From assembly GCA_025934135.1 (NCBI GenBank), contig JAICYR010000010.1:1-38777 (forward strand): 38,777 nt of DNA, written 5' to 3'. The notes under the pieces are model-generated. The model was not told where the DNA came from. It did not search any database and was given only the letters and a program-made list of their open reading frames with translations. Every line of letters begins with the position of its first letter. Position 1 is the first letter of the stretch. The stretch is from Acidobacteriaceae bacterium. GTDB lineage: Bacteria > Acidobacteriota > Terriglobia > Terriglobales > Acidobacteriaceae. Positions 5,805 through 32,000 of this stretch are shown in pieces. Both the position numbers and the translations under genes were made by a program.

Positions 5805-5889
5805 GCCTGCGAACCACTTGCGACGTTACGAGCGGCGTTTCATATCGCCGCACACCAAGATCGAGTTACCAAGTAAAAGGTGGACCCCA

Positions 5890-8719: not shown

Positions 8720-10483
8720 ATGAACCGCCGCGAATTCCTGGTCGCGCTCACAGCGAGTGTCGCGGGCGTTGGTGTTTCCAGAGCGCAGGTAAGTGGGGGA
8801 ATGGCGTCGCGGGGAGTTCGGCCCCAGCCGCGAGGAAAGCCCTCGGGCTTGCCGTTTCATGCGCGCTTGACTGACGTGGCGGCCAGCGCGGGCCTCAACG
8901 CGCCGGTGATTTACGGACCGCTCAACCACATGGATTACATCCTGGAGTCGATGGGCTGCGGCGTCGCGTTCATCGACTATGACAACGATGGCTGGCTGGA
9001 TATCTTTCTGTTGTCGGGGACACGCCGCGAGGGTCCTGTGTCAGGCGCGACCAACCGGCTTTACAAGAACAACCGCGATGGCACATTCACTGATGTAACG
9101 GAAAAAGCAGGGCTGGTGCGCCAGGGCTGGGCGTTTGGAGTCACGGTTGGTGATTACAACAACGACGGTTTCGACGACTTGTTTATTACCTGCTGGCCGC
9201 AGAACATCCTTTACCGCAATAACGGCGACGGTAGTTTTACGGATGTGACGAAGCAGGCGGGGCTGCTACATCCGGGGAACCGCTGGGGTACCGGATGCAC
9301 GTGGGTGGACTATGACCGCGACGGCCATTTGGACCTGTTCGTCTCCAATTACCTGGTGTTCGATTTTGGAAAAATTCCGCCCACGGGCAAGGACCCCAAT
9401 TGTGATTACAAAGGCGTGCCTGTGAATTGCGGGCCGCGCGGTCTGGTCCCTGAACGACCCATGCTCTACCACAATAATGGCGACGGGACTTTCACCGAGG
9501 TTACGGAGAGTTCCGGCGTTGGGGCCGTAGCGCCGGCGTACGGGCTGACTGCAGTGGGCGCGGACCTGGACGGCGATGGCTGGCAGGAGATTTACGTCGC
9601 GTGCGACTCGACTCCGAGCCAACTGTTCCATCACCGCAAGGATGGCACCTTCGAGGAAGTCGGATTGGAGTCCGGCCTAGCGGTCAACGAGGACGGGAGA
9701 GAGCAAGCCGGAATGGGCATCGCGGTCGGCGACCTCAATACCGATGGTCTGCTGGATGTACTGAAAACCCATTTTGCAGAGGACACCGCGGCTCTCTATC
9801 AAAACATAGGCGATCTGCAATTTAACGATGTCACGCTGCGCTCCGGCCTGGGCGTTGAGACACGGTATGTGAGTTGGGGTGACGGCATGGTCGACCTGGA
9901 CAACGACGGTCTGCCGGACATTTTCTGGGTGACCGGCAGCACTTTCCCCGAAGTAGAGCGGAAATTTCCAGAGTTTCCTTTCAAATCGCCTCGCATCTTA
10001 TTCCGGAATCTCGGCGGCGGCCGATTTGAAGAGCTTCTGGACGGCGCGGGCCCGGGTGTCGCTGAAGAGCATGCGAGCCGTGGAGTGGCTTTCGGTGATT
10101 TCGACAACGACGGCGATTTGGACATCCTGATCATGAACATCAACGAGCCGCCGTCGCTCTTACGGAATGATGTCAGCGGATCGGCGCATTGGCTCAAAGT
10201 GAAGCTGGTGGGAACTCGCTCGAACACCAGCGCCATTGGATCCGTGGTTACGGCGGTATATGGAAAGAGCCGGCAGTCGCAGGCAGTGATGGCCTCAAGC
10301 AGCTATCTTTCCTGCGGCGACCGGCGCTTGCACTTCGGCTTGGGAAAGGCGGTTACGGCGGACCTGGATATTATGTGGCCGAGCGGCGCTCGAGAATCAA
10401 TCAAGGGCGTGCGCGCCGATCACCTGATAACTGTGAAGGAGGGCGTTGGGGTAATTGCGCAGGAGCAATTTGGCCATGGCTAA
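8720..10483 (+). CDS. Tat-exported FG-GAP/VCBS propeller with ASPIC/UnbV domain
   Basis: This 587-residue protein is of the CRTAC1/UnbV-like family. The N-terminus is a Tat signal (NRREFLVALTASVAGVGVS). Seven calcium-type repeats of the form D-x-[DN]-x-D-G follow (DYDNDGWLD, DYNNDGFDD, DYDRDGHLD, DLDGDGWQE, DLNTDGLLD, DLDNDGLPD, DFDNDGDLD), which predicts a seven-bladed integrin-alpha-like beta-propeller. A C-terminal ASPIC/UnbV domain runs from about 490 to 575 (HWLKVKLVGTRSN to LDIMWPSGARE). A two-cysteine loop (CDYKGVPVNC) sits between blades. The ATG at 8720 is preferred over an in-frame GTG at 8705 because it puts the twin arginine close to the start. The stop overlaps the next gene by 8 bases, implying translational coupling with the TPR protein. 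Such proteins are likely binding or scaffolding proteins, and no enzymatic role can be claimed. Confidence 0.88.
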   Translation: MNRREFLVALTASVAGVGVSRAQVSGGMASRGVRPQPRGKPSGLPFHARLTDVAASAGLNAPVIYGPLNHMDYILESMGCGVAFIDYDNDGWLDIFLLSGTRREGPVSGATNRLYKNNRDGTFTDVTEKAGLVRQGWAFGVTVGDYNNDGFDDLFITCWPQNILYRNNGDGSFTDVTKQAGLLHPGNRWGTGCTWVDYDRDGHLDLFVSNYLVFDFGKIPPTGKDPNCDYKGVPVNCGPRGLVPERPMLYHNNGDGTFTEVTESSGVGAVAPAYGLTAVGADLDGDGWQEIYVACDSTPSQLFHHRKDGTFEEVGLESGLAVNEDGREQAGMGIAVGDLNTDGLLDVLKTHFAEDTAALYQNIGDLQFNDVTLRSGLGVETRYVSWGDGMVDLDNDGLPDIFWVTGSTFPEVERKFPEFPFKSPRILFRNLGGGRFEELLDGAGPGVAEEHASRGVAFGDFDNDGDLDILIMNINEPPSLLRNDVSGSAHWLKVKLVGTRSNTSAIGSVVTAVYGKSRQSQAVMASSSYLSCGDRRLHFGLGKAVTADLDIMWPSGARESIKGVRADHLITVKEGVGVIAQEQFGHG

Positions 10484-11525
10484 ATCCCTGATCGTTCTTA
10501 TGCTGCTATTCGCAGCAGGAATTTCGCCCGCGCAGAGCCACCGACCCGGGGTGGATGCCTACCTCAGCCGCGGCGCGCAGCTCATGCAGAGCCACATGTT
10601 CCAGCAGGCAGCGGACCAGTTCAAGCAAGCGCTGGCGCTCAGCCCGCGGGACCCACGGGCACACATGCAGTACGCGATCTGCCTTCTTTCGCTCGGACGC
10701 AACAATGAAGCCCGCCAGCAATTCGAGAAGGTGCGCCAACTGGCGGGCAACTCGCGGTTTGTGGCGTACTACCTCGGACGGCTCGACCTGCTCTCGAATG
10801 ATTACCCTTCAGCGATCAAGAGGCTCACTTCAGTATCCGGCGATCCGCCATTTCCGGACACGGCATTTTATCTGGGAGAGGCATACGTCTCCTCGGGCAA
10901 TGTGGATGAGGGAATCAAATGGCTTGAGCGCGCCGCCAAGCTGCTGCCGAGCGACTACCGCGTTCATTACCGGTTGGCGCGCGCATTCTCGAGCGCGGGG
11001 CGCAGTCAGGACGCGTCGCGCGAGTACAAGCTCTACACGCTTTATCTGAACGAACATAAAAATACCGAGACGGACGTCCGCGCCTGCTCCGAGGCGTTGC
11101 GTACAAAGCCATTGAGCGCAGCGCATGAAATCTGCCAGCGAATGTTCGATCCCAATGATCCGGAGAAGCTAGTATTGCTCGGGCAAATGTATGGCGATGC
11201 GGAGGCTTACGAGGACGCGCTGGATCCGTTGCGGCGCGCTGTGCAACTCGACCCGAACTCATTCGAGGCGTGGCACGACCTGGGACTCACGTATTTCCGA
11301 CTGAAGCGATATGGGGAAGCGCGCGCGCCGCTGGAGAAGGCTGTCCGGTTGCGTCCGGAGTCCTACGGTCCGGTGGTGCTGCTGGGCGCAACGCTTTATA
11401 TGCTAAGGGACGATGCCGCGGCGCTGCCGGTGCTAGAGCACGCGCATCGCCTCAAGCCGGACGATGCTCAGACCAATGCGGTGCTGGAAAAACTCCGCGC
11501 AGAGCAGAAAAAAACTGAGCCTTGA
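10476..11525 (+). CDS. Secreted TPR-repeat protein paired with propeller
   Basis: This 349-residue protein starts within the preceding stop (overlap ATGGCTAA) with AGGAG 10 bases upstream. A Sec signal (MAKSLIVLMLLFAAGISPAQS) is followed almost entirely by tetratricopeptide repeats, such as AADQFKQALALSPRDPRAHMQYA, SAIKRL and the last repeats near EAWHDLGLTYFRLKRYGEARAPLEKAV. TPR arrays bind peptides or partner proteins. The overlap suggests this is the dedicated partner of the propeller protein encoded just upstream. It faces the minus-strand propeller gene, with only 42 bases between the two stops. Confidence 0.85.
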   Translation: MAKSLIVLMLLFAAGISPAQSHRPGVDAYLSRGAQLMQSHMFQQAADQFKQALALSPRDPRAHMQYAICLLSLGRNNEARQQFEKVRQLAGNSRFVAYYLGRLDLLSNDYPSAIKRLTSVSGDPPFPDTAFYLGEAYVSSGNVDEGIKWLERAAKLLPSDYRVHYRLARAFSSAGRSQDASREYKLYTLYLNEHKNTETDVRACSEALRTKPLSAAHEICQRMFDPNDPEKLVLLGQMYGDAEAYEDALDPLRRAVQLDPNSFEAWHDLGLTYFRLKRYGEARAPLEKAVRLRPESYGPVVLLGATLYMLRDDAAALPVLEHAHRLKPDDAQTNAVLEKLRAEQKKTEP

Positions 11526-11567
11526 GGCGCGCCGCAGGGCCGTGGCTGCGCGTGTCCAGCGAGGCGA

Positions 11568-13301
11568 CTACGATTCCTCGATGTGATGGATCTTATTGGC
11601 CGGCAAGTCCTTCAAAGTTTGCCGGACGCCGCTCGGCCAGCGTATTTCAAGCAGTTTGACTGACTTGAACGGGCCTACACCGAAGTGCGGACGCGGATCG
11701 CGGGATGCCTGATAACCGGAACTCGTCGACAACATTTCGTATTGAGAGCTTCCATCCTCGGTTGTAACTTTCAGTTGTGCGCCAATACCCATGCGATTGC
11801 TTTTGGTCCCGGTCAACTGAAACTTGATCCAATTGTTGGAATTGGATGTGACGTTGCGCAAAATCCGGGCCTTGTTGCTCAGGGCCGTTGTCACCAGGTC
11901 CAAGTGCCCGGTGTTAAACAGATCTCCGACAACGCAGCCGCGATACGGCAGCGCGACTTGCAGTGCGGTCCCACTCTGTTTTGAGACGTTCTCAAATTTC
12001 ATGTGTCCCAGATTGCGAAAGATCGAGAGCGGCTCGCCGAAGGTTCGATTGGAGAAATCCGCGATGTTGTCAAGCACGTTGCCGCGAGCTACGGACAAGT
12101 CCTTCAGGCCATCATTGTCGAAGTCTCCAACCGCGTTCGACCAGCCAGACATCTCCATCGTGTACTGCGCCAATCCGCTCCGGCCTGTGAAATCGTCAAA
12201 CATGCCCTTTCCAATGTTCCGGAATAGCGGAAAAGTCTCCAGCTCTGTGGCCGTGATCCAGATATCGGGCAAGCCATCGTTGTCCAGGTCGCGGAACTGC
12301 GCTCCCATTCCCGAGACTGCCTGACCTGTCTCGGAGAAGGCCACGCCCACGTCGAGCGCAACTTCTTCGAATGTTTTGCCTCCGATGTTATGGAAGAGAG
12401 AGTTGGGCATATTGTCATTGGCAACGAAGATGTCGACGAAGCCGTCACCGTCGTAGTCGTTGAACCCGATTCCCATTCCCTTGCAAAGCACTTTGGATAT
12501 CCCGGTTTCTTCTGAAACATCGGTGAAAGTGCCATCGCCATTGTTGTGATACAAGGTGCAATGCAGGGGCTCGTAAAACTTTGGGTGGCAGTAGGAGCGC
12601 TCCCGTCCTCCACCGAGGCAAACAGGATCTCCATCGACGTGCCAGCGGCAGTAATTTGACACGAATAAGTCGAGCTTTCCATCGTTGTCATAGTCGACCC
12701 ATCCGGCAGCCGCGCTCCACATCTTTTCGCCTTTGTAGGTAGGCATGCCTACTCCGGCCTTGTCGGTCACGTCAGTAAACGTGCCGTCCCGGTTGTTGCG
12801 ATAGAGGTGGTTCTTTGTAACGCTCGCGACAAAGATGTCCGGCCATCCATCATTGTCAAAATCGCCGACCGCCACGCCCATGTCGTAGCCGTCTCCCGCG
12901 AGGCCGGACTTCTCGGTGACGTCGGTGAATGTTCCGTCGCGATTGTTGCGGAACAGCCGATTGTAGTATTTGGGCGAATCTTTTTTGAGCGACGGGAGCG
13001 CGGCTCCGTTTACAAAGAAAATATCGAGCCAGCCGTCATTGTCATAGTCGATCAGGCCCACGCCTCCGACCATGGTTTCCGGCTGGTTCTTGTTGGGGGT
13101 TGGACAATTGTTGGTGATGAAATGCACGCCGGACTGGCTGGTAATGTCCTCAAAACGGATGGTGCTGCTGCCGCGTGCCGGCGTCCAATCCATTCTTGGA
13201 GCCACGATTCCAGCAGCAAGGCCCCGTGCGTGGGCGGGCAGGAGCAATCCCGATCCCAGCCAGCCGCAAGAACGCAAAAAATCTCGCCTGTTAAAAAACA
13301 T
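11568..13301 (-). CDS. Second Tat-exported propeller with ASPIC/UnbV domain
   Basis: This 577-residue minus-strand protein is a paralogue of the propeller at 8720-10483. It has a Tat signal (FFNRRDFLRSCGWLGSGLLL), six intact D-x-[DN]-x-D-G repeats (DYDNDGWLD, DFDNDGWPD, DYDNDGKLD, DYDGDGFVD, DLDNDGLPD, DFDNDGLKD) and a seventh degenerate copy (DLFNTGHLD). A C-terminal ASPIC/UnbV domain follows (NWIKFQLTGTKSN to LEIRWPSGVRQ). A cysteine-rich insertion (CRWHVDGDPVC, then YCHPKFYEPLHC) precedes blade four and differs from the other paralogue. The ATG at 13301 is chosen to place the Tat motif at the N-terminus; its AGGGG upstream is very close, so the start is uncertain. The minus-strand TPR gene begins 365 bases further up, and the two are probably in one unit. 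Confidence 0.86.
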   Translation of the reverse strand: MFFNRRDFLRSCGWLGSGLLLPAHARGLAAGIVAPRMDWTPARGSSTIRFEDITSQSGVHFITNNCPTPNKNQPETMVGGVGLIDYDNDGWLDIFFVNGAALPSLKKDSPKYYNRLFRNNRDGTFTDVTEKSGLAGDGYDMGVAVGDFDNDGWPDIFVASVTKNHLYRNNRDGTFTDVTDKAGVGMPTYKGEKMWSAAAGWVDYDNDGKLDLFVSNYCRWHVDGDPVCLGGGRERSYCHPKFYEPLHCTLYHNNGDGTFTDVSEETGISKVLCKGMGIGFNDYDGDGFVDIFVANDNMPNSLFHNIGGKTFEEVALDVGVAFSETGQAVSGMGAQFRDLDNDGLPDIWITATELETFPLFRNIGKGMFDDFTGRSGLAQYTMEMSGWSNAVGDFDNDGLKDLSVARGNVLDNIADFSNRTFGEPLSIFRNLGHMKFENVSKQSGTALQVALPYRGCVVGDLFNTGHLDLVTTALSNKARILRNVTSNSNNWIKFQLTGTKSNRMGIGAQLKVTTEDGSSQYEMLSTSSGYQASRDPRPHFGVGPFKSVKLLEIRWPSGVRQTLKDLPANKIHHIEES

Positions 13302-13475
13302 GACCCCTATACGATCAGGATTCTGAGTGCGGCGGCGCACTCGCAAGAGAATCTAACGAGAGAACATCCGTTCCTCGCCAACAAGTGAACTGTGTTGAAC
13401 CTCTCAGCGCGAGGCTCTAGCGTGCATCCTCAAACATGTTTTCGCGATTGTCAAGGCGCAGGGCCGAAGACTCAT

Positions 13476-14666
13476 TTAGCGGTCCGCCAAGTTCGAGCGT
13501 GACCTCAGCCGCTGGAATTCCGCGCGCTGCTGTGCGGCTTCGCGGCTTCGTCCCGCGGCGGAGAGCGCCAGCGAAAGCGCGAAATGCGCATCCGGGCTGC
13601 CCGGAGATAATCGGACCGCTGTTTGCAACTCATGCAAAGCGCGAGTGTTGTCTCCAGCGCCAAGCCAAAGTTTGCCGCATACAACGTGGGCTGCGAAATT
13701 GTCCGGGGCCAGAACAACGGCTTCCCGAGCATACTTTAAGCCCTGCTTGTAATCGCCTACGCGAAGAAATTCAAAGGCGAGTTGGATACGGGCTGTGGCT
13801 TTCTTCGGGGTCACAGCAATTTCCTGCTGGAACTCCTTCACGGCGTCCGGGGGATCTTCCTTGAGCAGATACACCCCGTACGCGTAATGCATATTGGGCT
13901 CGGAGGGGTACTCGGCAACCAGTTGCTTCAGTTCCTTTCCGGCCGCGGCCCTCTCCTGCAGCGCGACCAGAGCCTGGGCGTGGCCGACCCGCCGAATCAG
14001 GGAAGCCTGATCTTGAGGAATCGCGCTTGGCAGTTTCGGAATGCGCAGCGCCGCGAGCCCAAACGCGTCCAGAAGGTCGGTATCGGTCAGCACCGAGTCT
14101 TCTGGCATGTTGGGGTGCGCGGCTGCAATCTGGTTCGCAAGCAGTGTCAAGCGGACCAAAGCAATCTCAGGCTGTCCGAAACGGTTCTGAAGGGTTCCGT
14201 CGTCGTAGAGTGCCCTTTGGACGAATGCTGTGTTGGTGCCGAGCCCGAGGCTTATTCCTTGCTCAAATGCGGTAAGTGCATCGTGGTAATGCTCCAGCTT
14301 GAATTCGATCAGGCCCAGCATTCCGTAACCCGGACCGGGCTGTGTGTGCTCGACGGCCACAAAGTGCTGGAATGCCTCACGCGCATTGACCAATTGGTTG
14401 GAATCAAAAAACATCGTGCCCAGATACCACCATCCTTCCGACCAGGAGGGCCGGAGCGCCGTGGCTCTCTGAAAGAGCAGGATTGCTTGCGGGACCTGGT
14501 TGGCATCCATGGCCTGCTGCGCGCGCGATGCCAATTGATCGAAAGATTGTGTCTCCGCGGCCCCAGCCATCGGGCCATGCAGCGCCAGCGCGGCCAGCAG
14601 AACAACTAGCAGCCGGATCGCTCGTCCGGTCCTCTTTCGCTGAAGTTTCGATGCTTCGTTGAACAT
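13476..14666 (-). CDS. Secreted TPR protein, paralogue of the one at 18212
   Basis: This 396-residue protein has a signal peptide (RAIRLLVVLLAALALHGPMAGA) followed by TPR repeats over most of its length. The ATG at 14666 is preferred because GGAG lies 9 bases upstream; ATGs at 14681 and 14696 lack a ribosome binding site. A non-TPR segment in the middle contains LRIPKLPSAIPQDQ. The TPR protein at 18212-19312 has the close equivalent LRMPILPSAVPSDQ, and both then read YP-x-x-PN-x-HY-x-YG. The two are therefore clear paralogues encoded on opposite strands of the same cluster. It lies 174 bases upstream of the minus-strand propeller gene and is divergent from the VWFA-like gene. Confidence 0.85.
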   Translation of the reverse strand: MFNEASKLQRKRTGRAIRLLVVLLAALALHGPMAGAAETQSFDQLASRAQQAMDANQVPQAILLFQRATALRPSWSEGWWYLGTMFFDSNQLVNAREAFQHFVAVEHTQPGPGYGMLGLIEFKLEHYHDALTAFEQGISLGLGTNTAFVQRALYDDGTLQNRFGQPEIALVRLTLLANQIAAAHPNMPEDSVLTDTDLLDAFGLAALRIPKLPSAIPQDQASLIRRVGHAQALVALQERAAAGKELKQLVAEYPSEPNMHYAYGVYLLKEDPPDAVKEFQQEIAVTPKKATARIQLAFEFLRVGDYKQGLKYAREAVVLAPDNFAAHVVCGKLWLGAGDNTRALHELQTAVRLSPGSPDAHFALSLALSAAGRSREAAQQRAEFQRLRSRSNLADR

Positions 14667-14774
14667 GAACTGGTACTCCATATTACGCCGTCGCATAGGG
14701 GAGGGCCCGTCGTAAATCCATTGGTCTTTGAGGCGGAGTGCTTGCGTTCCGGCGGGCACCTGAGTGGATGCGAA

Positions 14775-14804
14775 TATGCTTGCAGTTTGGAGCGTGATTA
14801 TAAT
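14775..14804 (+). promoter_or_regulatory. Possible promoter of the VWFA-TPR-TPR unit
   Basis: A perfect TATAAT at 14799-14804 lies 35 bases before the ATG at 14840, within the divergent gap to the minus-strand TPR gene. The -35 region is poor: TATGCT at 18 bases is the best match at usable spacing. I call it only on the strength of the -10 box and its position. Confidence 0.35.
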
Positions 14805-14839
14805 AGCATCGCTCGACCCTCTTGCAAGGAGCCTGAATT

Positions 14840-17041
14840 ATGAGCCGTTCGGCATTCGCTCTGGCAGCCGCGTTTTTCTGCACATGCGGCCTTGTTGCCC
14901 AAACTCCCGCCACACAACACGCGCCTGAGAATTCGACGCATCCTCCGGTCGTCCGCGTCAGCGGCGAAGAGGTGGCGCTGGACATGGTTTTTCGCGATAA
15001 GAAGGGCAAGGCAGTCGACGATATCCGTCCGGACGAAGTGCATGTTTACGAGAACGGGGTTGAGGAGCATCTCAATTCCTTCAGGTTTGTGTCAGGGACT
15101 AATGCGGCGGTCACTGATGCGGCGGCGACGGCGCCATCGGCTGGCTCGATACCGCTTGACCCGATGCGGAACATTCGGCTGGTGACTCTGGTCTTCGAGA
15201 ATCTGGATCTGCAAGGCAAAAGGTTTTTCCGTCAGGCGCTGGAAGACATTGTGAAAATGGCGCCAGAGCAGAACCTCTATTTCTCAGTTGTTGTGGTCGA
15301 TCAGAAGCTGAACATGATTCTGCCCTTCACGAATGACCGCCAGGCGCTGCTGAAAAGCGTTGACAAGTCCATGATGTGGTCTTTCACCCAATACGATAGG
15401 AATTCGGCTGAGATAGAGTCGCAACTTCATCAAACGCTCACGAACGGGGAACCCACCTCTGAGAGCAATGCGACGGGCGACGAGACTACGCCTCCCACTT
15501 TGAGCGGATCCGCAACCTCAGGGCCGAGTCAGGGCCAAATCAACAACGTTGTTAACTGGAAAATGGCAAAGATGCAGTACGATATGCTCCAGCAGGCGGA
15601 TGCCTCCCAACGCGAGGCGGGCGCCCGCGGAACCATTGATGCCCTGCTGTCGCTTGTTCGGGCGGAATCGCAATTGCCGGGGCGCAAAGTCATCCTGTAT
15701 TTCAATCCATCCCTGTTCATTCCGGAAATCGCAAAAGAGCAATACAACTACATGATCAGCGCGGCAAATCGCGCCAACATCACCTTTTACACGGTGGATC
15801 CCAAGGGACTGGTGACCTGGAGCCAGGAAAATGCGGGGCGGTCCCAGTTGAGCGGGGCATCGGGAGAGTCGCGCAACGAACAGCTTTCCGGCGGCGTTGG
15901 CGCGGTGACGCAAGCCGAGGCACAGGTGGATGAGACCGCGGAAAACGGGATACGGTCGAACCCGCTCCTCTGGTTGAAGGATTTAGCGGAGCAGACGGGG
16001 GGGGCAACCATTGCCAACACCAATGACCTCAATGCTCCGCTCAGAACGGTGATGAACGAAGTGAAGAGCTATTACGAAGCTTCCTATGATCCGCACATCA
16101 AGGTGTTGGATGGGAAGTTTCGCCGCATTTCCGTTCGCATAGACAGGCCCGGGATCATGGTCCACTCCCGGAGCGGATACTTCGCCCTGCCCCGGCTGGT
16201 GGGCGGGCAGCAGCTTTTGGCCTACGAAGTGCCTCTGCTGAAAGCGCTGAGCTCGACAACTCCCCTCGATGGAGTATCGTTCCACGCTGCAGCGGAAAGA
16301 TTCAGCGAACGAGGGCCGAATATTCAATACATGGTCACGCTGCAGGTTCCGCTGAAGGAGCTGACCTTCGCGCCGCAGAAGGACGGCAAGAGCGCTCTGC
16401 TGGACGCGCCGCTGCTCGCGGTGGTTCGAAACTCCTCAGGCGACATCGTAGAAAAATTCAGTAAGCCGTTTGCGGTGCAGGAACCACTATCAGCCGTGGA
16501 CCGCTTCAAGAAGGGATACTTGATCCAATCATTCCCGACCGAGCTTGCGCCGGGAACCTATACGTTGGAAGCGGTCATCATGGACGGGGGAGCCAACAAG
16601 ATCGGGGTGAAAAAGAGCACATTCACAGTTCCCCAGCCCACTGACAAGCTTGCGATCAGCGACGTAGTGATTGTCGACCGGGCCGATAAGCTGAAGGACA
16701 ACAAGATCGTGAATCCGTTTTATTATCCGGGAGGAAAGATTTCACCAACCCTGAATACCACTCTCAAAGGGGGCCCAGGTAACTTCCTGCCCTTCTACTT
16801 CGCTGTGTATCCTGATCCTGCGATCAAGGATTCTCCAAAACTGACGATGGCGTTTTACAAACAGGGGCAGTATCTCGGCTCAGCCGAAGCTCCATTGCCA
16901 CCGGTGGGGAAAGATGGGCGGATTCCTTACATTGCGGATCTTCCTGCCGACAAATTCACTCCAGGCTCGTATGAAATTCGCCTCGGCGTAACGCAGGGCA
17001 CCTCCACGGCGGAAGAAAAAGTAGACTTCAACGTGGACTAG
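14840..17041 (+). CDS. VWFA-related acidobacterial-type exported protein
   Basis: This 733-residue protein starts at ATG 14840, 8 bases after AAGGAG. It has a signal peptide (MSRSAFALAAAFFCTCGLVAQ). The order of segments fits the acidobacterial VWFA-related family (TIGR03436). A leading module KKGKAVDDIRPDEVHVYENG sits at 55-73, then the A-domain from 112 (IRLVTLVFENLDLQGK), with GRKVILYFNPS at 281-291 and ITFYTVDPKGL at 313-323. The place where the metal-binding DxSxS motif should be reads ENLDL, so the MIDAS is not canonical. A linker at about 200-235 is rich in Thr, Ser and Gly. The remaining C-terminal 350 residues are beta-rich and unassigned. It heads a tight plus-strand unit with two TPR genes; a binding or assembly role is inferred. 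Confidence 0.82.
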   Translation: MSRSAFALAAAFFCTCGLVAQTPATQHAPENSTHPPVVRVSGEEVALDMVFRDKKGKAVDDIRPDEVHVYENGVEEHLNSFRFVSGTNAAVTDAAATAPSAGSIPLDPMRNIRLVTLVFENLDLQGKRFFRQALEDIVKMAPEQNLYFSVVVVDQKLNMILPFTNDRQALLKSVDKSMMWSFTQYDRNSAEIESQLHQTLTNGEPTSESNATGDETTPPTLSGSATSGPSQGQINNVVNWKMAKMQYDMLQQADASQREAGARGTIDALLSLVRAESQLPGRKVILYFNPSLFIPEIAKEQYNYMISAANRANITFYTVDPKGLVTWSQENAGRSQLSGASGESRNEQLSGGVGAVTQAEAQVDETAENGIRSNPLLWLKDLAEQTGGATIANTNDLNAPLRTVMNEVKSYYEASYDPHIKVLDGKFRRISVRIDRPGIMVHSRSGYFALPRLVGGQQLLAYEVPLLKALSSTTPLDGVSFHAAAERFSERGPNIQYMVTLQVPLKELTFAPQKDGKSALLDAPLLAVVRNSSGDIVEKFSKPFAVQEPLSAVDRFKKGYLIQSFPTELAPGTYTLEAVIMDGGANKIGVKKSTFTVPQPTDKLAISDVVIVDRADKLKDNKIVNPFYYPGGKISPTLNTTLKGGPGNFLPFYFAVYPDPAIKDSPKLTMAFYKQGQYLGSAEAPLPPVGKDGRIPYIADLPADKFTPGSYEIRLGVTQGTSTAEEKVDFNVD

Positions 17042-17066
17042 GGAGAGTGAGGGATCTCCGTAGATA

Positions 17067-18215
17067 ATGGGAGTAAGAGTGGTGCGGTGGTTAACATTTG
17101 TGGTCCTGCTGGCCGTGGGAGTCGCGGCGGCACAGGATGATCCCTCGACGCAATTGCTGCGGCAGGCGGTTGAGCTTCAAAAAGCGGGCAAGCTCACGGA
17201 AGCCATCACAGACTATCGGACCTTCCTGAAGGCCCATCCGGAGGCCGCCCCGGTCCGCTCGAATCTGGGGGCGGCCCTGGCCGATGAAGGCCACTACGCT
17301 GATGCCGTTACGGAGTATACCCTCGCGCTGAAGGCTGATCCGTCGAATGACGGCATCCGCCTGAACCTGGGGCTGGCCTGGTACAAGATGGGCAATATCG
17401 CAAAGGCGGTGAGCGAGTTTGAAGTAGTGTACGGGGTGCAGTCGGCCAACGATCCCAATCATCAACGCCTCGCGCTACTACTGGCGGAGTGTTACCTGCG
17501 CCAGGGGAAAAATGACCGCGTGGTGTCGCTGCTGGACCCGATTCAGGCATCGGAGCCGAACAATTATGCTATAGATTACCTGCTCGGCACCGCCCTGCTG
17601 CACCAGGGCCAAACAATGCGCGGAGCGCTCCTGATTCAGCAACTGCTCAAAAACGGAAACACCGCCGAGGCCCATATGCTCATGGCATATACGCAATACA
17701 AGGCCCACGACAAGGGCAAGGCGCTCGTCGAGGTGAACCGCGCGATTGCACTGAACCCAAACCTGCCGGAGGCATACAGTCTTCGCGGAAGGCTGGAGTT
17801 TCTTGAGGCGAACCCGAAAGGCTCCGAGGCCTCATTTCACAAAGCCCTTGCTCAGGACCCGAACAATTTCGACGCCCTGTTGTGGCTCGGAACATTGCTT
17901 CGCCAGGAGGGCCGACTGCCTGAGGCCGAAAAGTATTTGACGCGCGCTCTGCAATTGCAACCCGCGGAGATTCGGGCCCGTTTTCAGTTTGCGCGACTGT
18001 GCTCCGACGAGGGGAATAACGAGCGCGCCGCGGAATTGCTGCAGGCGCTCATCAAGGATCATCCTGAGTACACCGAGGCGCATCGCACTCTCGCCACCAT
18101 CTATTTTCGTCTGGGGCAGCCGGCCGAGGGCCGCCGCGAGAAGAAAACTGCAGACGGAATGGACGCCGCCATTCGACAACGAAACGAAGCGCGTGGGCGG
18201 AGCATGACAAAATGA
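17067..18215 (+). CDS. Secreted TPR-repeat protein
   Basis: This 382-residue protein has a signal peptide (VVRWLTFVVLLAVGVAAAQ) and then about nine TPR-like helical repeats, including AITDYRTFLKAHPEAAPVRSN, DAVTEYTLALKADPSNDGIRLN, ALVEVNRAIALNPNLPEAYSL and EAEKYLTRALQLQP. It follows the VWFA-like gene by 25 bases and overlaps the next TPR gene by 4 bases (ATGA), so the three are surely one operon. It is a more regular TPR protein than its downstream neighbour and lacks the LPSA motif. Its probable role is periplasmic protein-protein binding. Confidence 0.85.
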   Translation: MGVRVVRWLTFVVLLAVGVAAAQDDPSTQLLRQAVELQKAGKLTEAITDYRTFLKAHPEAAPVRSNLGAALADEGHYADAVTEYTLALKADPSNDGIRLNLGLAWYKMGNIAKAVSEFEVVYGVQSANDPNHQRLALLLAECYLRQGKNDRVVSLLDPIQASEPNNYAIDYLLGTALLHQGQTMRGALLIQQLLKNGNTAEAHMLMAYTQYKAHDKGKALVEVNRAIALNPNLPEAYSLRGRLEFLEANPKGSEASFHKALAQDPNNFDALLWLGTLLRQEGRLPEAEKYLTRALQLQPAEIRARFQFARLCSDEGNNERAAELLQALIKDHPEYTEAHRTLATIYFRLGQPAEGRREKKTADGMDAAIRQRNEARGRSMTK

Positions 18216-19312
18216 AGCTGTGCAGTGTGTTCCTCCTGTGCATCGCAACGCTAGCGGCGGGCCAGCCAAGCCCCCGATCATTTGAGCATCTTTCCCAGAG
18301 CGCCCAGCAGGCGTATGCGGCCAACCGCAATGAAGAGGCATTGCGGCTCTACGCGCAAGCCGTCAAGCTGCGGCCGGAATGGGCCGAGGGCTGGTGGGCC
18401 ATCGGAATGATCAACTACGAGGAGGACCACTATCCTCAGTGCCGGGACGCGCTCACCCGCATGGTCGGCCTGGACAAGTCGGCGGCGCCCGGTTGGGCCC
18501 TTCTTGGTCTGTGCGAATTTCGTACCGGTCAATATGACCTGTCATTCCAGCACCTGAAAAAAGCCCACATGCTGGTTCCTGTCAAGGAATCCGGCGGACA
18601 ACTTCTGGCAATGGCGAATTACCATCTGGCGCTGCTGCTTACCCGTCAGGGCGCTTTCGAGTTGGCGCAGCAGATGCTAGTGGAGGTCGCCCTCAGAGTC
18701 CGCAACAACCCCGACATGGTCTTTGCCTCCGGCGTCACCTCGCTGCGCATGCCCATTTTGCCGTCTGCCGTTCCGTCGGATCAGCGAGACGTGGTGGCCA
18801 TGGCCGGAAAAGTCTTCTGGGACGTCGCGCTGGAGCACACAGGACAGGCAGAATCCGACTTCAAAGCACTTGTCGCCGCCTATCCGGACTTCCCTAATGT
18901 CCACTACTTCTACGGAACATTTCTGGCGGCGCACAGCCCCAAGCAGTGCGCTCCTGAGTTTCTGGCTGAACTCCGGGTCAATCCGAGCAGCGTACCAGCC
19001 CGGGTCCAGCTTGCGCTTCACTACATCCTCGAAGGAAAGACGGCAGAGGCCCTGAAGTATGCGAAACAGGCGGTCGCGCTAAGCCCCGACTCCGTGGGAG
19101 CGCAATTGGCGCTCGGGCAGGCGCTGCGGGGGGCCGGCCGCGATCAGGATGCCCTGACCGCGTATCAGGCTGCGGAGCGGCTCGATCCGGTGAGCCCCAA
19201 AATTCGGCTTTATCTCGCAAATGAATACCGCGCTCTCGGGCGGCCGGAAGATATGCGCCGGGAACAGTCCGAGTACCGTCGCCTGAAGGCTGAACAGCCG
19301 AACTGGCCCTGA
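18212..19312 (+). CDS. Secreted TPR protein with LPSA motif
   Basis: This 366-residue protein starts by ATGA overlap with the preceding TPR gene. The signal peptide is short (MKLCSVFLLCIATLAAGQ). TPR repeats run from about 30 to 110 and from 270 to 355, separated by a segment containing LRMPILPSAVPSDQ and YPDFPNVHYFYGTFLAA. The same segment occurs in the minus-strand TPR protein at 13476-14666, and the two align along their whole length. The conserved segment is not a TPR and may be a ligand-contact site, which is an inference. It is the last gene before the promoter of the TonB-dependent receptor. Confidence 0.85.
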   Translation: MKLCSVFLLCIATLAAGQPSPRSFEHLSQSAQQAYAANRNEEALRLYAQAVKLRPEWAEGWWAIGMINYEEDHYPQCRDALTRMVGLDKSAAPGWALLGLCEFRTGQYDLSFQHLKKAHMLVPVKESGGQLLAMANYHLALLLTRQGAFELAQQMLVEVALRVRNNPDMVFASGVTSLRMPILPSAVPSDQRDVVAMAGKVFWDVALEHTGQAESDFKALVAAYPDFPNVHYFYGTFLAAHSPKQCAPEFLAELRVNPSSVPARVQLALHYILEGKTAEALKYAKQAVALSPDSVGAQLALGQALRGAGRDQDALTAYQAAERLDPVSPKIRLYLANEYRALGRPEDMRREQSEYRRLKAEQPNWP

Positions 19313-19368
19313 TTTGCGCACCAGGCAAAGTGCTTTCGCGCGAAAATTCTCCGGCACTCCGAAACCCC

Positions 19369-19385
19369 TGCAAAAACGTTTTACA
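19369..19385 (+). promoter_or_regulatory. LacI-like operator upstream of TonB receptor
   Basis: A 17-base imperfect palindrome, TGCAAAAACGTTTTACA, has 6 of 8 arm positions paired. It resembles LacI/CcpA-family operators (TGnAAnCGnTnnCA). It ends 8 bases before the -35 box of a strong promoter, so a bound regulator could affect initiation. No LacI gene is in the window. Regulation of the receptor by a sugar-responsive LacI protein is inferred. Confidence 0.5.
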
Positions 19386-19393
19386 GATTTCTC

Positions 19394-19423
19394 TTGACAT
19401 TCTTATTTGTCTCCGGGTATAAG
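19394..19423 (+). promoter_or_regulatory. Sigma70-type promoter of the TonB receptor
   Basis: A perfect TTGACA (19394-19399) is separated by 18 bases from TATAAG (19418-19423). It is the best promoter match found in the window. Transcription from about 19430 would give a 5' leader of roughly 170 bases before the ATG at 19601. Confidence 0.75.
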
Positions 19424-19520
19424 TTCCGCCCAGTAAGACTAATTCGATTTACTACCATGTAGGTTTGCAGGCGTTAGTCTCGGGGTTTTTTCCGAATCGA
19501 CTTTTCAACCGCTCTTATGA

Positions 19521-19538
19521 ATCGTTGAAAACAACGAT
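19521..19538 (+). other. Hairpin in the TonB receptor mRNA leader
   Basis: A perfect 7-bp stem (ATCGTTG/CAACGAT) with an AAAA loop lies in the predicted 170-base leader, about 62 bases before the start codon. No T-run follows, so it is not a terminator. It may stabilise the message or be part of a leader regulator. Confidence 0.4.
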
Positions 19539-19600
19539 CACGCTGGTTTCGCGGCTTAAAGCAAGAACGATTGGCAGCTGTATTTCTTAGGAGGTTTTGT

Positions 19601-22600
19601 ATGAGTTTCTTTCGGAGTCCCATCTCTGCGTTTAGATTCTGGGCGGCGGCCGGGCTGACGCTCCTCGTCGCTATAGCCATGATTTCCACTGCCCCAACCG
19701 CGCGGGCACAGTCAAGTAGCGCAACCCTCAGCGGGACGGTTCTCGACGTCACGGGGGCGATCGTTCCAGGCGCAACCGTCACTCTGAAAAACCAGGCGAC
19801 CGGCGACAAACGTGACGCAGTCAGCAACGGCGACGGCTTCTTCAACTTCGCCGCAGTCCCTCCCGGCACTTACACGGTCAGAGTCACAAGGCAGGGCTTC
19901 GCCGCCTGGCAGGCAGGCGGCATCGTCCTGTCGTCCGGCGATAACCGCAATGTGAGAGGAATCGCGCTGAAGGTTGGCGAGGCAGACCAGACCGTGTACG
20001 TCAGCGGCACCACCACTCAGATCACTCCGACGGACTCGGGCGACAAGTCGTTCACAATTGATCAGAAAATTCTGCAAAACGTGGCCATTGTGGGTCAGAA
20101 CGCGGCGGAATTCATCAAGATCATGCCCGGCATGGCCATGACAGGCGGCGCGGTGAACACGGCCTCGTTTGCGGCGCAGGACGAGCGCACAGGAAATGGC
20201 CCGGTGGGAAACTTTTCAGCCAATGGCCAGCGCACCGGGGCCCTCGACATTACGTCGGACGGCGCGCACATTATTGACCCGGGTTGCAATTGCGGCCAGG
20301 CTGAAAATACCAACACCGAGATGACCTCGGAAGTAACGGTGATGACCTCGAACTTCGGTGCGGATTCCGCAAAAGGCCCTGTGGTTATCAACACGGTCAG
20401 CAAATCCGGCACCCAGCAGTTCCATGGCGAGGCGTACTTGTACTCGCGCTATTACGTGCTGGATGCGAATGACTGGCTGGGCAACAACGCCGGTGTAAAT
20501 TCGCAGGGTCAGCCAATCGCGCCTCGGCCCCAGACCAAATACTTCTTCCCGGGGTTCCAGATTAGCGGACCGGTCATTATCCCCAAGACTAACTTTAATC
20601 ACAATCGCGATAAGCTCTTCTTCTTCTTCGGCACCGAGTATTACAAGCAGAACGTAAACAACGGCATCTACCATGCGGTGGTTCCGACGCAGGCCATGCG
20701 CGCGGGTGACTTTACTGACGCCGCATACATGAAGGACCTTCTGGGGTCTGCGATCAATAACGTGCCGAACAACGGCGGTCCTAATGGGAGCGGGTACAGC
20801 AATGGAATGATTAATCCCGGCCAGATCGATCCAAGCGGGCAGGCGCTGATGAACATTTACCCGCTGCCCAATACGAACCCCGCGGCCAACGGAGGCTACA
20901 ACTACATCAACTCCCAGACGCGTTACTCCAACATGATTCAGTACCGCGGCAAGGTCGATTACAGCATCAACAACTCAACTAAGATCTACGTGGAATACAA
21001 CCACCAGAACGATAGCGCGGAAGAAAGCCTCGACACGCTCTGGACGGGAAATGCCCAAAGCTGGGATGATCCCACTACTCCCTACCCGACGCCGATTGTC
21101 GAGACTTCCGACTCGGAAGTCATAACAGCAAACATGACCAAGGTGTTTACGCCAACCCTCACGAACGAGGTCGTCTTCAACTGGGTCTACCTGAACCTGC
21201 CGAACAGCTTCAAGGACCCGTCGAAAGTGGAGCGCGGAAGCCTGGGCATCAATTACAACATGCTCTTTAGTCATCCTGACGAAGCCAAGCTAATCTATCC
21301 TGAGCTGACCGGCTGGGGCGATGGTATCTCCAACCAGCTCAATTCTGGGTTCGAACTGAACGGAACGGTTTATGCCAAGAAGACGCTGCCTTCCGTTGCA
21401 GATAACGTAACAAAGGTCTGGAAAACCCATAGCCTGAAGTTTGGCTTCTACTGGGAACGCACCTGGAACTCGCAGCCCGGCAACTCTCCTGTGAATGGCG
21501 TAGCCGTGTTCAGCAACTGGGGTTCGAATACCAGCGGAAACGCCTATGCTGATATGCTGCTCGGTCAAACCACGCAGTATTCGGAGCAGAACTTCAACGT
21601 CGTTCCCGCCTTCCGCTACATCTCGACTGAGTTCTATGGTCAGGATTCGTGGAAGGTTTCCAGGAGGCTCACGTTGGATTTGGGCATTCGTCTGTCGCAC
21701 CTTGGACCCTGGGTTGACACCACCGGCTACGGCTTCGCCGCGTGGTATCCGGACCTCTACGCCAAGGGTGTTGGTGGTTCGGTTGGCGGAGGCACGTTCC
21801 CTGGCATCATGTGGCACAAGGTCAACCAATCCACTCCGCTCTCCGGCTCTTCGAGCAGGCTTCTCTTCTTCAACCCGCGCCTGGGGTTCGCATGGGATGT
21901 CACTGGTTCCGGTCATACCGTGTTGCGCGGCGGATACGGTATCTACCACTTTCATGACGAGCAGAACGTGCAGAACCCAGCATACGGAATCGTGCGCGGA
22001 TCGTTCTCGTCTCCGACGCTGTGGAGCCCGGCTTTCAGCCAACTTGCCCCACAGTCCGGAGGACTCGCGATTCCAAGCGCCGTTACCGCACTGGTGCCGG
22101 GCGATAATCATGAGCCGCAAACGCAGGATTGGAGCGTTACTGTGGCGGAAAGGGCGCCCTGGAACAGCCTCGTTGAGGTGGCGTATGTCGGGAACAAGTC
22201 TGACTATTTGAGCAATTACAACAACAACTTCGATCAGATCAACGATATAGATCAGAGCGCATTGTTCCAGAAATACGGCTGGCTGCCTGACTGCTATCCG
22301 TCGGGTGCCGCGACCGACGGCGGCGCCTGCGCTGCCAGCGGTGCGGATACCGGCTACAACTCGACCGATACTCAGAATGCTCGTCCGCTCGCCGCTTACG
22401 GCGGTTTAAAGCTGATTGATCATAAGATGTATTCGAACTACAACAGCTTGCAGGTGACCTGGAATAAGCAGCAAGGCCCCCTCACCTTTCTGACGAATTA
22501 CACCTTCTCCAAGGCACTCGGAATCCGAGGCGAGAACGGATCAGCAGTTGGCAACCCCACCGACCTTAGGAACAACTACGGAACGCTTCCCAGCAACCGT

Positions 22601-23257
22601 ACGAATATCTTCAACGTAGCGTACGTGTATCAACTCCCTAACCTCACTGCTTTCTCCAACCCTTTTACGAGACAAGTAGTGAACGGCTGGCAAATATCGG
22701 GAATTACGCAGTACCAAACCGGCGCGGATTTGCAGGCGGCTATCACTTCTAATTTCGGTTACACAGCCTACATTCCTGCCGGCACAACCTTCATGGGCAA
22801 GACAATTGATAAACCTGTCCAGGCGAGCGCGCAAAATGTGCTGGGCAGTCCCGATCTTACGGTGATGCCGAAGTTAATCTGTGACCCCCGTCACGGGCTC
22901 CACGCTCACCAATACGTAAACGGTAGTTGCTTTGCCAACTTTGCGACGCCAGGCCAGCAGGGGACCTATATCTTCCCAGCCATGGCTGGACCAGGGTTCT
23001 TCAACAGCGATCTCTCGGTAACCAAGAACTTCGTCTTCGGAAATTCCGAAAGTAAGAAGGTGCAGTTCCGGTTCTCGGGCTATAACTTCCTGAACCACCC
23101 GCTGCGTACTTTCAATACCAGCAGCGATCCGGGTCTAAGCCTCCAATTTGATCAGAATGGCAACCTCAAACAGCCCGCTCCGGGAGTGAATTTCGGGTAC
23201 GCCGACTACAAAGTGGGCCACCGAATCATGCAAGGGGAGGTCAAATTTAGCTGGTAG
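19601..23257 (+). CDS. Oar-like TonB-dependent outer-membrane receptor
   Basis: This 1218-residue protein has AGGAGG 6 bases before ATG 19601, which rules out an in-frame TTG at 19571. The signal peptide ends near ARA/Q36. Residues 39-133 form a carboxypeptidase-regulatory-like domain (SGTVLDVTGAIVPGATVTL). The plug is about 145-270 (FSANGQRTGALDITSDGAHI, then VINTVSKSGTQQFHGEAY), and the rest is a large beta-barrel ending in Trp (GEVKFSW), as outer-membrane proteins do. No N-terminal TonB box could be identified. Acidobacteriota carry many such receptors, thought to import oligosaccharides or other large ligands. It is transcribed from its own promoter with a LacI-like operator and is followed by a terminator hairpin. 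A CNC pair (Cys229, Cys231) lies in the plug. Confidence 0.92.
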   Translation: MSFFRSPISAFRFWAAAGLTLLVAIAMISTAPTARAQSSSATLSGTVLDVTGAIVPGATVTLKNQATGDKRDAVSNGDGFFNFAAVPPGTYTVRVTRQGFAAWQAGGIVLSSGDNRNVRGIALKVGEADQTVYVSGTTTQITPTDSGDKSFTIDQKILQNVAIVGQNAAEFIKIMPGMAMTGGAVNTASFAAQDERTGNGPVGNFSANGQRTGALDITSDGAHIIDPGCNCGQAENTNTEMTSEVTVMTSNFGADSAKGPVVINTVSKSGTQQFHGEAYLYSRYYVLDANDWLGNNAGVNSQGQPIAPRPQTKYFFPGFQISGPVIIPKTNFNHNRDKLFFFFGTEYYKQNVNNGIYHAVVPTQAMRAGDFTDAAYMKDLLGSAINNVPNNGGPNGSGYSNGMINPGQIDPSGQALMNIYPLPNTNPAANGGYNYINSQTRYSNMIQYRGKVDYSINNSTKIYVEYNHQNDSAEESLDTLWTGNAQSWDDPTTPYPTPIVETSDSEVITANMTKVFTPTLTNEVVFNWVYLNLPNSFKDPSKVERGSLGINYNMLFSHPDEAKLIYPELTGWGDGISNQLNSGFELNGTVYAKKTLPSVADNVTKVWKTHSLKFGFYWERTWNSQPGNSPVNGVAVFSNWGSNTSGNAYADMLLGQTTQYSEQNFNVVPAFRYISTEFYGQDSWKVSRRLTLDLGIRLSHLGPWVDTTGYGFAAWYPDLYAKGVGGSVGGGTFPGIMWHKVNQSTPLSGSSSRLLFFNPRLGFAWDVTGSGHTVLRGGYGIYHFHDEQNVQNPAYGIVRGSFSSPTLWSPAFSQLAPQSGGLAIPSAVTALVPGDNHEPQTQDWSVTVAERAPWNSLVEVAYVGNKSDYLSNYNNNFDQINDIDQSALFQKYGWLPDCYPSGAATDGGACAASGADTGYNSTDTQNARPLAAYGGLKLIDHKMYSNYNSLQVTWNKQQGPLTFLTNYTFSKALGIRGENGSAVGNPTDLRNNYGTLPSNRTNIFNVAYVYQLPNLTAFSNPFTRQVVNGWQISGITQYQTGADLQAAITSNFGYTAYIPAGTTFMGKTIDKPVQASAQNVLGSPDLTVMPKLICDPRHGLHAHQYVNGSCFANFATPGQQGTYIFPAMAGPGFFNSDLSVTKNFVFGNSESKKVQFRFSGYNFLNHPLRTFNTSSDPGLSLQFDQNGNLKQPAPGVNFGYADYKVGHRIMQGEVKFSW

Positions 23258-23377: not shown

Positions 23378-25303
23378 ATGGGGCGACTTTTGTGGTCAGG
23401 TAGTATGTGCGGACTACTGCTTGCGTGCGCGTTCAGCTTGGGTTCGAGCGCGATAACTTCGGGGCAGGATGTCGCCCCGGCCCCGGCGGCGAACAAAAAC
23501 TTCAAAGTTGCGGTTTACATTCCCGTGAGCATTGTGGAGCGGATGCGCGATCCGCAGTATCTGGACTCCACCTGGAAGCAGATCTCCGCTGGCGTGAAGG
23601 TGGACAAGGTCTACATCGAGACCTACCGCAGCCGGGAGATGGCCGATGGGCCGCTCATTGAGAGCGTGAAGAAATTCTTCGAGAACCACGGAGTTCAGGT
23701 GGCAGGCGGCATCGCATACAGCGACCGCGATGCGGGCCAGTTCCGCTCTTTCGTCTTCACCAACCCCGCGGACCGCGCGTATGTGAAACAGGTTGCGGAG
23801 TTCACCGCGAAGCACTTCAACGAAATCATCCTCGACGACTTTTTCTTCAACAACACCAAGGACCCTTCAGACATCGCGGCCAAGGGCAATCAAAGCTGGT
23901 CCGAGTTTCGGCTGAAGCTGATGGACGAGGTCTCGCGCGACCTGATTGCGGACGCAGCGCGAAAAGTGAATCCCAAGGTAAAGATCATCATCAAGTTCCC
24001 CAATTGGTATCCGTCCTTCCAGGGGAATGGCTATGACCTGGCCGTAGAGCCCACGATCTTCAGCGGCATCTACACCGGCACGGAGACGCGCGACCCTGTG
24101 ATTACCGATCAGCAGCTCCAGCAATACGAGAGCTACGAGATCGTCCGTTACTTCGACAATGTCGCGCCTGGTCGTAACGGCGGCGGCTGGGTGGACACGT
24201 TCAGTATCCGTTACGTGGATCGCTATGCCGAGCAGTTATGGGACACAATGCTCGCCAAGGCGCCGCAGATCATGCTGTTCGAGTACTCGAATCTACTGCT
24301 GCCGGCGCAGCCAGGAGATCGCGGCGCGTGGACAGATATGCATACCAGCTTCGACTACCAAGCCTGGTGGCCGCATTCCACTCCCGACTTCGCCGCGGTT
24401 GCGGGCAAGGCCCTCAATGAGGTTGATCAGGTTATCGGAAAGCTTGGCAATCCAGTTGGAGTTGCCGTCTACCGCCCGTTGAATTCGACGGGCGAGGACT
24501 ATCTGGCGAACTATCTGGGCGAGATTGGTATTCCCGTGGAAATGGTTCCGCATTTTCCCACGCAGGCCAAGACCGTTTTGCTGACCGCCGCCGCCGCGCA
24601 TGATCCGAACATTCTCGCGGAGATCAAGGCACACCTGATGGCGGGCGGCAATGTCGTGATCACCACCGGGCTGCTGAAGAAAATGTCGGAACAGATCGCG
24701 CAAATATGTGAGCTGCGTGTGCCGGGAAATCAGCTTCTGCCGACGGAGTACTGGGGCGCGTATGGCGCCGGCAATGGCGCCAACCTGGGGACGTCCGATC
24801 CGCTAATGGTGCCGGAGGTGGACTACTTCACCAATGACGCGTGGCCTTTGGTGCGCGGAACGGCCAATGGACACGGTGCTCCCCTGCTGCTCATGGATCG
24901 CTACGGAAAGGGAGTCCTGTACGCGCTGACCATCCCTGATAACTTCAACGATCTGTATCGGCTGCCTCGGGGTGTGCTGACTGCGCTGCGGGGCTACATC
25001 GGCGGGGAACTGCCAGAGACAATGGATGCACCCAGCCAGGTGAGCCTGATGGAGTACGACAACAAAACGTTCGTGGTGCAGTCGTTCCGGGACAAGCCCA
25101 TCGTGGTGACGGTCTGGGTAAAGGGCACAGCGAACGAAATACGAAATCTGGTCACCGGCGAAATGGTGCAGGCGAGCTCTCCCCAAACGGCCGCACATCC
25201 GGGGGAATATCGCGGAATTCCAGGCACGGAGCAGCGGACCAGCTTCCAAATCAAGGTGCAACCGCATAGCTTTGTGGCGTTCACTATGGCCCGCACCCAG
25301 TAA
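23378..25303 (+). CDS. Exported glycosidase-like protein of unrecognised family
   Basis: This 641-residue protein has an N-terminal export signal. A cysteine in LLLACAFS could make it a lipoprotein, but the lipobox is imperfect. The first 320 residues read like a TIM barrel: strands FKVAVYIPVSI (42-52), KVDKVYIETYR (74-84), VQVAGGIAYSDRD, EIILDDFFFNN (149-159), KVKIIIKFPNWYP (200-212) and IMLFEYSN. Asp153/Asp154 at the end of the fourth strand and nearby acids such as Glu224 are candidate active-site residues. Residues about 360-460 look like the glutamine-amidotransferase-like domain seen in GH42-type enzymes (VLLTAAAAHDPNILAEIKAHLMAGG), followed by a beta C-terminus. I do not recognise the family, and an extracytoplasmic glycoside hydrolase is an inference. 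It has an AAAGGA ribosome binding site and lies between the receptor terminator and the second tRNA fragment. Confidence 0.6.
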   Translation: MGRLLWSGSMCGLLLACAFSLGSSAITSGQDVAPAPAANKNFKVAVYIPVSIVERMRDPQYLDSTWKQISAGVKVDKVYIETYRSREMADGPLIESVKKFFENHGVQVAGGIAYSDRDAGQFRSFVFTNPADRAYVKQVAEFTAKHFNEIILDDFFFNNTKDPSDIAAKGNQSWSEFRLKLMDEVSRDLIADAARKVNPKVKIIIKFPNWYPSFQGNGYDLAVEPTIFSGIYTGTETRDPVITDQQLQQYESYEIVRYFDNVAPGRNGGGWVDTFSIRYVDRYAEQLWDTMLAKAPQIMLFEYSNLLLPAQPGDRGAWTDMHTSFDYQAWWPHSTPDFAAVAGKALNEVDQVIGKLGNPVGVAVYRPLNSTGEDYLANYLGEIGIPVEMVPHFPTQAKTVLLTAAAAHDPNILAEIKAHLMAGGNVVITTGLLKKMSEQIAQICELRVPGNQLLPTEYWGAYGAGNGANLGTSDPLMVPEVDYFTNDAWPLVRGTANGHGAPLLLMDRYGKGVLYALTIPDNFNDLYRLPRGVLTALRGYIGGELPETMDAPSQVSLMEYDNKTFVVQSFRDKPIVVTVWVKGTANEIRNLVTGEMVQASSPQTAAHPGEYRGIPGTEQRTSFQIKVQPHSFVAFTMARTQ

Positions 25304-27791: not shown

Positions 27792-27828
27792 ACACAAAGT
27801 TCTCGCTGGAAGGAAGGTCATTCTTCAA

Positions 27829-29410
<1,582 letters not shown>

Positions 29411-31999: not shown

Positions 32000-32000
32000 A

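Follow-up and report, generated by a model that had tools for sequence, protein, structure and literature searches.

Background

What do eight neighbouring genes do if all of their products are exported, none of them resembles an enzyme and one is a large outer-membrane receptor? The question is raised by a locus in an Acidobacteriaceae bacterium from soil (GenBank assembly GCA_025934135.1). The whole stretch of DNA analysed here, hereafter the window (38,777 nucleotides), is one contig, JAICYR010000010.1, of this 3.69 Mb, 300-contig genome. The locus encodes two CRTAC1-type beta-propeller proteins with a UnbV/ASPIC domain (U1 and U2, collectively U), four tetratricopeptide repeat (TPR) proteins (T, among them Ta, Tb and Tb'), a protein with a von Willebrand factor A (VWA) fold (V) and an Oar-like TonB-dependent receptor (O). 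An original prediction, made from the letters alone, regarded these genes as one candidate system, a cell-surface capture assembly that feeds the receptor. In our opinion, the cluster serves to take up plant-wall oligosaccharides across the outer membrane with the help of accessory proteins and is organized around one clade of Oar-like receptors; we give this reading a probability of about 0.55.

The gene layout on which the original prediction was based is sound. All eight open reading frames (ORFs) are present and contiguous, and Pfam and NCBIfam confirm their families. The claimed 8-base overlap of a propeller gene with a TPR gene is there, the ATG of the latter lying inside the end of U1, and the VWA-TPR-TPR trio is indeed tight, with a gap of 25 nt between V and Ta and an overlap of 4 bases between Ta and Tb. 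Every product carries a Sec- or Tat-like leader, as read from the translations: Tat-like in U1 (RREFL) and U2 (RRDFL), Sec-type and free of a lipobox in the four TPR proteins, V and O. Family searches revealed no enzyme resemblance among the eight. The picture needs one refinement. The genes form two linked modules, V-Ta-Tb-O (14840-23257) and the U-TPR pairs, rather than one uniform operon; the U2-Tb' pair runs divergently from V-Ta-Tb-O.

Conservation of the receptor operon

We searched 30 relatives with V and then read the surroundings of the matches. The order O-Ta-Tb-V was found in the stretches L219, L220 and L221, and its variants are O-Ta-Tb-V-TPR-V (L223), O-Ta-Tb-U-V-V (L224), V-V-x-O-Ta-Tb (L218), Tb-V-TPR-U beside an O gene (L222) and, in a Bryobacteraceae metagenome-assembled genome, V-like-U-Ta-V (L139). 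L222, L224 and L139 thus also have U close to V, Ta or Tb. One-to-one relatives of O, Ta, Tb and V occur in other genera and families, and BLAST tells Ta and Tb cleanly apart. The two genes share 1-4 bases in the window, L218, L220, L221 and L224, and in L219 a 4-base gap separates them. Ta also matches TPR_Slam (64 bits); since it has no barrel, we set this match aside as general cross-matching among TPR families.

The association follows the phylogeny of the receptors. In a tree of 106 receptors, the O of the window belongs to a 13-member clade with support 1.0. Eight of these 13, counting that of the window, lie beside Ta, Tb or full-length V. Among the other 93 receptors of the tree, none was seen with Ta or full-length V as a neighbour.

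Because the operon stretches had been picked through V, we also made a test blind to neighbours: separate sequence searches with Ta, with Tb and with O were run over the 30 relatives, and nothing but the coordinates of their matches was compared. Of the 42 Ta matches, 18 have an O match no more than 6 kb away, and these include all of the eight strongest; chance would give about 0.7% per Ta match (binomial P 3e-28). One contig (G028:C4, 11423-19525), which has O-Ta and then Tb, was found in this way by coordinates and had been missed through V. Long V genes have O within three genes in 17 of 27 cases, compared with 51 of 291 genes in control stretches (P 1e-6); the controls are 20 fixed-interval stretches from two complete genomes, 291 genes in all, annotated like the other stretches by in-house profiles after simple gene calling. 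V matches in the four same-genus relatives are partial and weak only, so the operon is patchily distributed.

A second, simpler pairing also exists, in which O is directly followed by a long V of the TIGR03436 type (about 690-870 aa) with no TPR genes. It is common (L118, L119, L228-L234 and L236).

Pairing of propellers with TPR proteins

The second module was surveyed in 80 UnbV-centred stretches from relatives, drawn from approximately the 150 best UnbV matches, and in 9 from the same genome. A TPR gene adjoins 63 of 122 U genes of the relatives (52%) versus 14 of 291 control genes (5%; P 1e-26), and O lies within three genes of 52 of the 122 (43%) versus 51 of 291 (18%; P 1.6e-7). The share of TPR genes around U is 30% at distance 1 and about 0.5% at distances of at least 5 genes, and in 15% of cases the U gene and TPR repeats form a fusion. 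The O-T-U arrangement is seen again on several contigs of the same genome. Pairing of U with TPR extends, in small samples, to Poribacteria, Verrucomicrobiota and Gemmatimonadota. Co-occurrence in relatives no higher than by chance would have spoken against the original prediction; the gene set does recur, as O-Ta-Tb-V and as U-TPR, with or without O.

V, on the other hand, had to be discarded as a regular partner of UnbV proteins: none of the 122 U genes has a long V within three genes, and long V associates with O-Ta-Tb instead.

Could abundant families simply have come to lie together, with no functional link? TPR, UnbV, VWFA and Oar-like genes are certainly numerous; this genome alone has 13 UnbV and 14 VWFA matches over cut-off and 34 OMP_b-brl_4 matches. 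Chance does not explain the decay with gene distance, the conserved order with overlapping genes or the fusions, and the enrichment over control stretches together with the neighbour-blind coordinate test led us to reject this explanation, which we regard as extremely improbable.

Another UnbV operon was encountered in several genera, with the same genes in L011 (4601-12665), L019, L024, L028, L038 and L080: a UnbV-TPR fusion of about 1180-1235 aa, a UnbV protein of about 600 aa, usually a gene of 280-311 aa and a further UnbV protein. The 280-311 aa gene of L011 has an NQR2/RnfD-like membrane domain, and this operon is possibly an electron-transfer system. Multiheme cytochrome c families (C554, C7, paired CXXCH) are found beside some UnbV/TPR/receptor loci.

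Folds and localization of the proteins

In both U proteins Pfam finds an FG-GAP propeller followed by UnbV/ASPIC, which places them in the CRTAC1/ASPIC-UnbV family; the nearest named relatives of the propeller are from Acidobacteriota. The AlphaFold2 (AF2) model of U2 (pLDDT 85.5) has murine CRTAC1 (9etn_A) as its best PDB match, with a Z-score of 42.1, 455 residues aligned at an rmsd (root-mean-square deviation) of 2.3 and 24% identity, covering both the propeller and the C-terminal domain. CRTAC1 is far ahead in the Foldseek list and sugar-binding propeller lectins come next. The likeness of the modelled fold to these lectins reveals no ligand.

The model of V is weaker than that of U2 (pLDDT 69.3, pTM 0.50). 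Its core matches VWA domains with Z-scores of 15-17, and the aerotolerance protein of Bacteroides fragilis, 4jdu, with 14.9. The metal-ion-dependent adhesion site (MIDAS) motif DxSxS is absent from all 12 aligned V relatives; hence, judged by motif, V is no MIDAS-bearing adhesin.

O contains an outer-membrane beta-barrel domain, PF25183. A plug domain (PF07715) was detected in 7 of 15 aligned receptor relatives, and the O of the window itself gave no match to it. A search of NCBIfam with O at E 0.01 gave no match, the SusC family included, and a PDB sequence search found no receptor. We call O Oar-like, as a large receptor with an N-terminal CarboxypepD_reg domain.

On which side of the outer membrane do the accessory proteins work? 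Reading the translations, we saw no lipobox in the leaders of the four TPR proteins and V of the window. In a simple motif scan, the overall share of lipoboxes was 5% in T and 7% in V against a background of 5%, and 12% in U; RR motifs are commoner in U (28% versus 10%). Lipid anchors being this rare, a periplasmic position of T and V is, as far as such motifs can tell, at least as likely as a surface one.

This scarcity of lipoboxes fits a role of Ta, Tb and V in periplasmic assembly or quality control, where they would help the receptor clade to fold or to couple to TonB without any contact with the substrate, the U-T pairs being an independent neighbouring system. Other VWA-TPR operons are known, for example those of the Bat proteins. 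The resemblance of V to VWA folds, 4jdu among them, is in line with such a role, as is an association with the receptor clade that is tighter for Ta, Tb and V than for U. An independent U-T system is difficult to reconcile with the stretches in which U adjoins V, Ta or Tb. Moreover, roughly every second related receptor lacks a Ta/Tb match in its vicinity, so folding cannot generally need these proteins. We consider an assembly role unlikely.

Genomic context

The features of the window are collected in Table 1.

Table 1. Genes of the window discussed in the text, with the matches that identify them
Feature	Position	Strand	Evidence and remarks
PF00756 esterase (feruloyl-esterase-like), tannase/feruloyl esterase, SASA acetylesterase, GH9-like protein	773..8466	+	Pfam; NF041944 partial match for the first
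U1, CRTAC1-type FG-GAP beta-propeller with C-terminal UnbV/ASPIC domain	8720..10483	+	Pfam FG-GAP_3 5.2e-51, UnbV_ASPIC 6.9e-16; ORF 8705-10483, ATG at 8720
TPR protein coupled to U1	10476..11525	+	TPR_2 4e-33; Sec-type signal without lipobox; ATG at 10476
U2, CRTAC1-type propeller with UnbV/ASPIC domain	11568..13301	-	Pfam FG-GAP_3 and UnbV_ASPIC; AF2 model; ORF opens at 13346
Tb', TPR protein (427 aa as ORF), paralogue of Tb	13476..14696	-	Tb-family HMM 497.6 bits; 33% identity to Tb of the window (BLAST); ORF opens at 14759, upstream of U2 on the same strand
V, VWA-fold protein, TIGR03436, with C-terminal beta-sandwich region	14840..17041	+	TIGR03436 202.6 bits (cut-off 81.25)
Ta, TPR protein	17067..18215	+	One-to-one relatives in L218-L221, L223, L224, L139
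Tb, TPR protein	18212..19312	+	Relatives right after Ta in L218, L219, L220, L221, L224; by HMM also in L222, L223
O, Oar-like TonB-dependent receptor, CarboxypepD_reg and OMP_b-brl_4	19601..23257	+	PF25183 2.8e-135; PF13620 1.1e-20; ORF opens with TTG at 19571
Exported protein of 641 aa after the receptor	23378..25303		No Pfam match; sub-threshold NCBIfam match (beta-etherase)
FucP, FAA-fold hydrolase, two SDRs, enolase-superfamily sugar-acid dehydratase, LutC/LutB/LutA-type genes	25459..35417		FucP (L-fucose permease): TIGR00885 392.7 bits (cut-off 280.4); LutB: TIGR00273 480.7 bits (cut-off 444.8); LUD and CCG domains support the LutC- and LutA-like neighbours
Sugar-binding SBP_bac_1 protein	29304..30653		Likely start MPDTRLRIAV, without signal peptide
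Rhamnogalacturonidase	34857..36557	+	NF049898 691.7 bits (cut-off 500)

The esterases, the rhamnogalacturonidase, FucP and a pathway of the fucose/rhamnose type make this look like a plant-wall polysaccharide locus. A dehydrogenase-dehydratase-hydrolase set together with LutABC fits the non-phosphorylating route from L-fucose or L-rhamnose to pyruvate and L-lactate, and by family assignment the neighbouring genes constitute a probable fucose/rhamnose pathway. A receptor, carbohydrate-active enzymes and sugar catabolism occur here in one locus, as in loci of the polysaccharide-utilization type. The genes near O-T-U modules point in the same direction: they include GH30, MGH1-like, melibiase, CBM6, pfkB, LacI and nucleoside hydrolase families, mostly outside the families most frequent in the controls, and in two cases a glycosidase-type gene (arabinofuranosidase-like or cyclomaltodextrinase) lies between O and T. 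The part of the original prediction that tied the genes to nutrient capture therefore finds support in the carbohydrate surroundings of this and many other loci, while presentation at the cell surface is not supported, lipoboxes being rare.

The 641-aa protein is possibly an undescribed glycoside hydrolase-like enzyme. The SBP_bac_1 protein stands amid the fucose-pathway genes.

This context also bears on a quite different idea, that O exports rather than imports. Oar of Myxococcus xanthus is needed for secretion of the protease PopC (PMC11658791). O might likewise secrete a protein. Its cargo would be the Tat-exported propellers or the enzymes that act on plant walls, and Ta, Tb and V would serve in the periplasm as chaperones or in targeting. 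The large receptor type with its N-terminal CarboxypepD_reg domain would suit this, and so would the excess of RR motifs in U and the periplasmic look of T and V. The setting speaks against it, since it is repeatedly catabolic, with sugar transporters and kinases. The number of receptors does so too: PF25183 Oar-like receptors are present in 31 of 31 genomes, and most genomes of the class have at least 20 such matches, a number that suits the uptake of many substrates better than a secretion route. In our judgement export is improbable.

The hypothesis and its implications

If the cluster is an uptake module, the following order of events can be envisaged. The neighbouring enzymes would release a piece of pectin or xyloglucan that contains fucose or rhamnose, and a substrate with one of these sugars is probable for this locus. 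Propeller U, on whichever side of the membrane it resides, would bind the released oligosaccharide, and the TPR pair with V would keep the propeller, the receptor and the enzymes assembled in the outer envelope, presumably by direct contacts. O would then import the product with energy from TonB, and FucP and the adjoining pathway would complete its catabolism. The module would thus functionally stand in for SusD and surface glycan-binding proteins, with U, each paired with a TPR protein, added to an O-Ta-Tb-V core at many loci.

Several observations count against this proposal. Only 9 of 21 O relatives (at least 35% identity) have a Ta/Tb match within 6 kb, hence O is probably able to work without them. 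No O gene was found near the U-T pairs in the small samples of Poribacteria, Verrucomicrobiota and Gemmatimonadota. In a mirror-tree test, the distances of O and U are uncorrelated among paralogues of one genome, and the overall signal is weak and was not used as support; O and U accordingly seem to have swapped partners over deep time. Relatives of the cassette adjoin GH3 but also penicillin amidase or phosphodiesterase genes, so sugar may not be the sole substrate, and the substrate may differ by locus. Finally, with lipoboxes so rare in T and V, surface anchoring or presentation of the SusD or BtuG kind is not supported by the predicted leaders.

Few bacteria are as abundant in soil as the Acidobacteriota. 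The relatives searched have many Oar-like receptors and yet no SusD, which raises the question of how plant polymers are captured. Catabolic loci in which a receptor has its own accessory proteins are already a known kind of system. The bolder version of our proposal, to which we would give somewhat less than even odds, is that of an undescribed outer-membrane machine for capture that belongs to the Acidobacteriota, in which Oar-like receptors would get from a CRTAC1 propeller, a TPR pair and a VWA protein without MIDAS what SusC gets from SusD and glycan-binding lipoproteins. If true, this would be the first concrete role for bacterial CRTAC1 (UnbV) and TIGR03436 proteins. The families are each known; the system, and the role of the bacterial CRTAC1 and long TIGR03436 proteins, appear undescribed. 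We found no function of TIGR03436 proteins described in open-access papers, nor any account of a UnbV-TPR-receptor module in the open-access literature. Because three large families still without an assigned role, bacterial CRTAC1/UnbV, TIGR03436 VWFA and exported TPR proteins, are linked here to one receptor clade in a defined operon, their function becomes directly testable.

Comparison with known systems

The closest parallel is with the SusC/SusD systems and utilisomes of Bacteroidota, encoded in polysaccharide utilization loci. These too have a large TonB-dependent receptor with an N-terminal CarboxypepD_reg domain, adjoining accessory genes, catabolic genes around the receptor and many paralogous copies per genome, and SusD itself has a TPR-like helical fold. 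The differences are equally plain. SusD (PF07980) was found in none of 31 genomes, whereas the same search was positive in a Bacteroides control; O has no NCBIfam match; and T, V and U belong to other families, mostly without lipoprotein signals.

In vitamin B12 uptake by Bacteroides, BtuG is a propeller lid on the TonB-dependent transporter BtuB (PMC10404256). The pairing of a beta-propeller with such a transporter is shared, and ligand binding by the propeller is known for BtuG. Whereas BtuG is a lipoprotein of the cell surface, U has a leader of the Sec or Tat type and its propeller is the CRTAC1-type FG-GAP/UnbV one; our locus also has additional TPR and VWA partners. With SusD missing and accessory proteins that are not lipoprotein-like, the module belongs to neither system.

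O shares the Oar-like receptor type with Oar of Myxococcus and differs from it in gene neighbourhood, accessory set and catabolic context. U differs from the CRTAC1 family elsewhere by its pairing with TPR proteins and receptors. V is a member of TIGR03436 by score, and it is the long subgroup of this family that is tied to receptors here. By analogy, the best reading is that the module may work like SusCD or BtuB-BtuG, built from other protein families.

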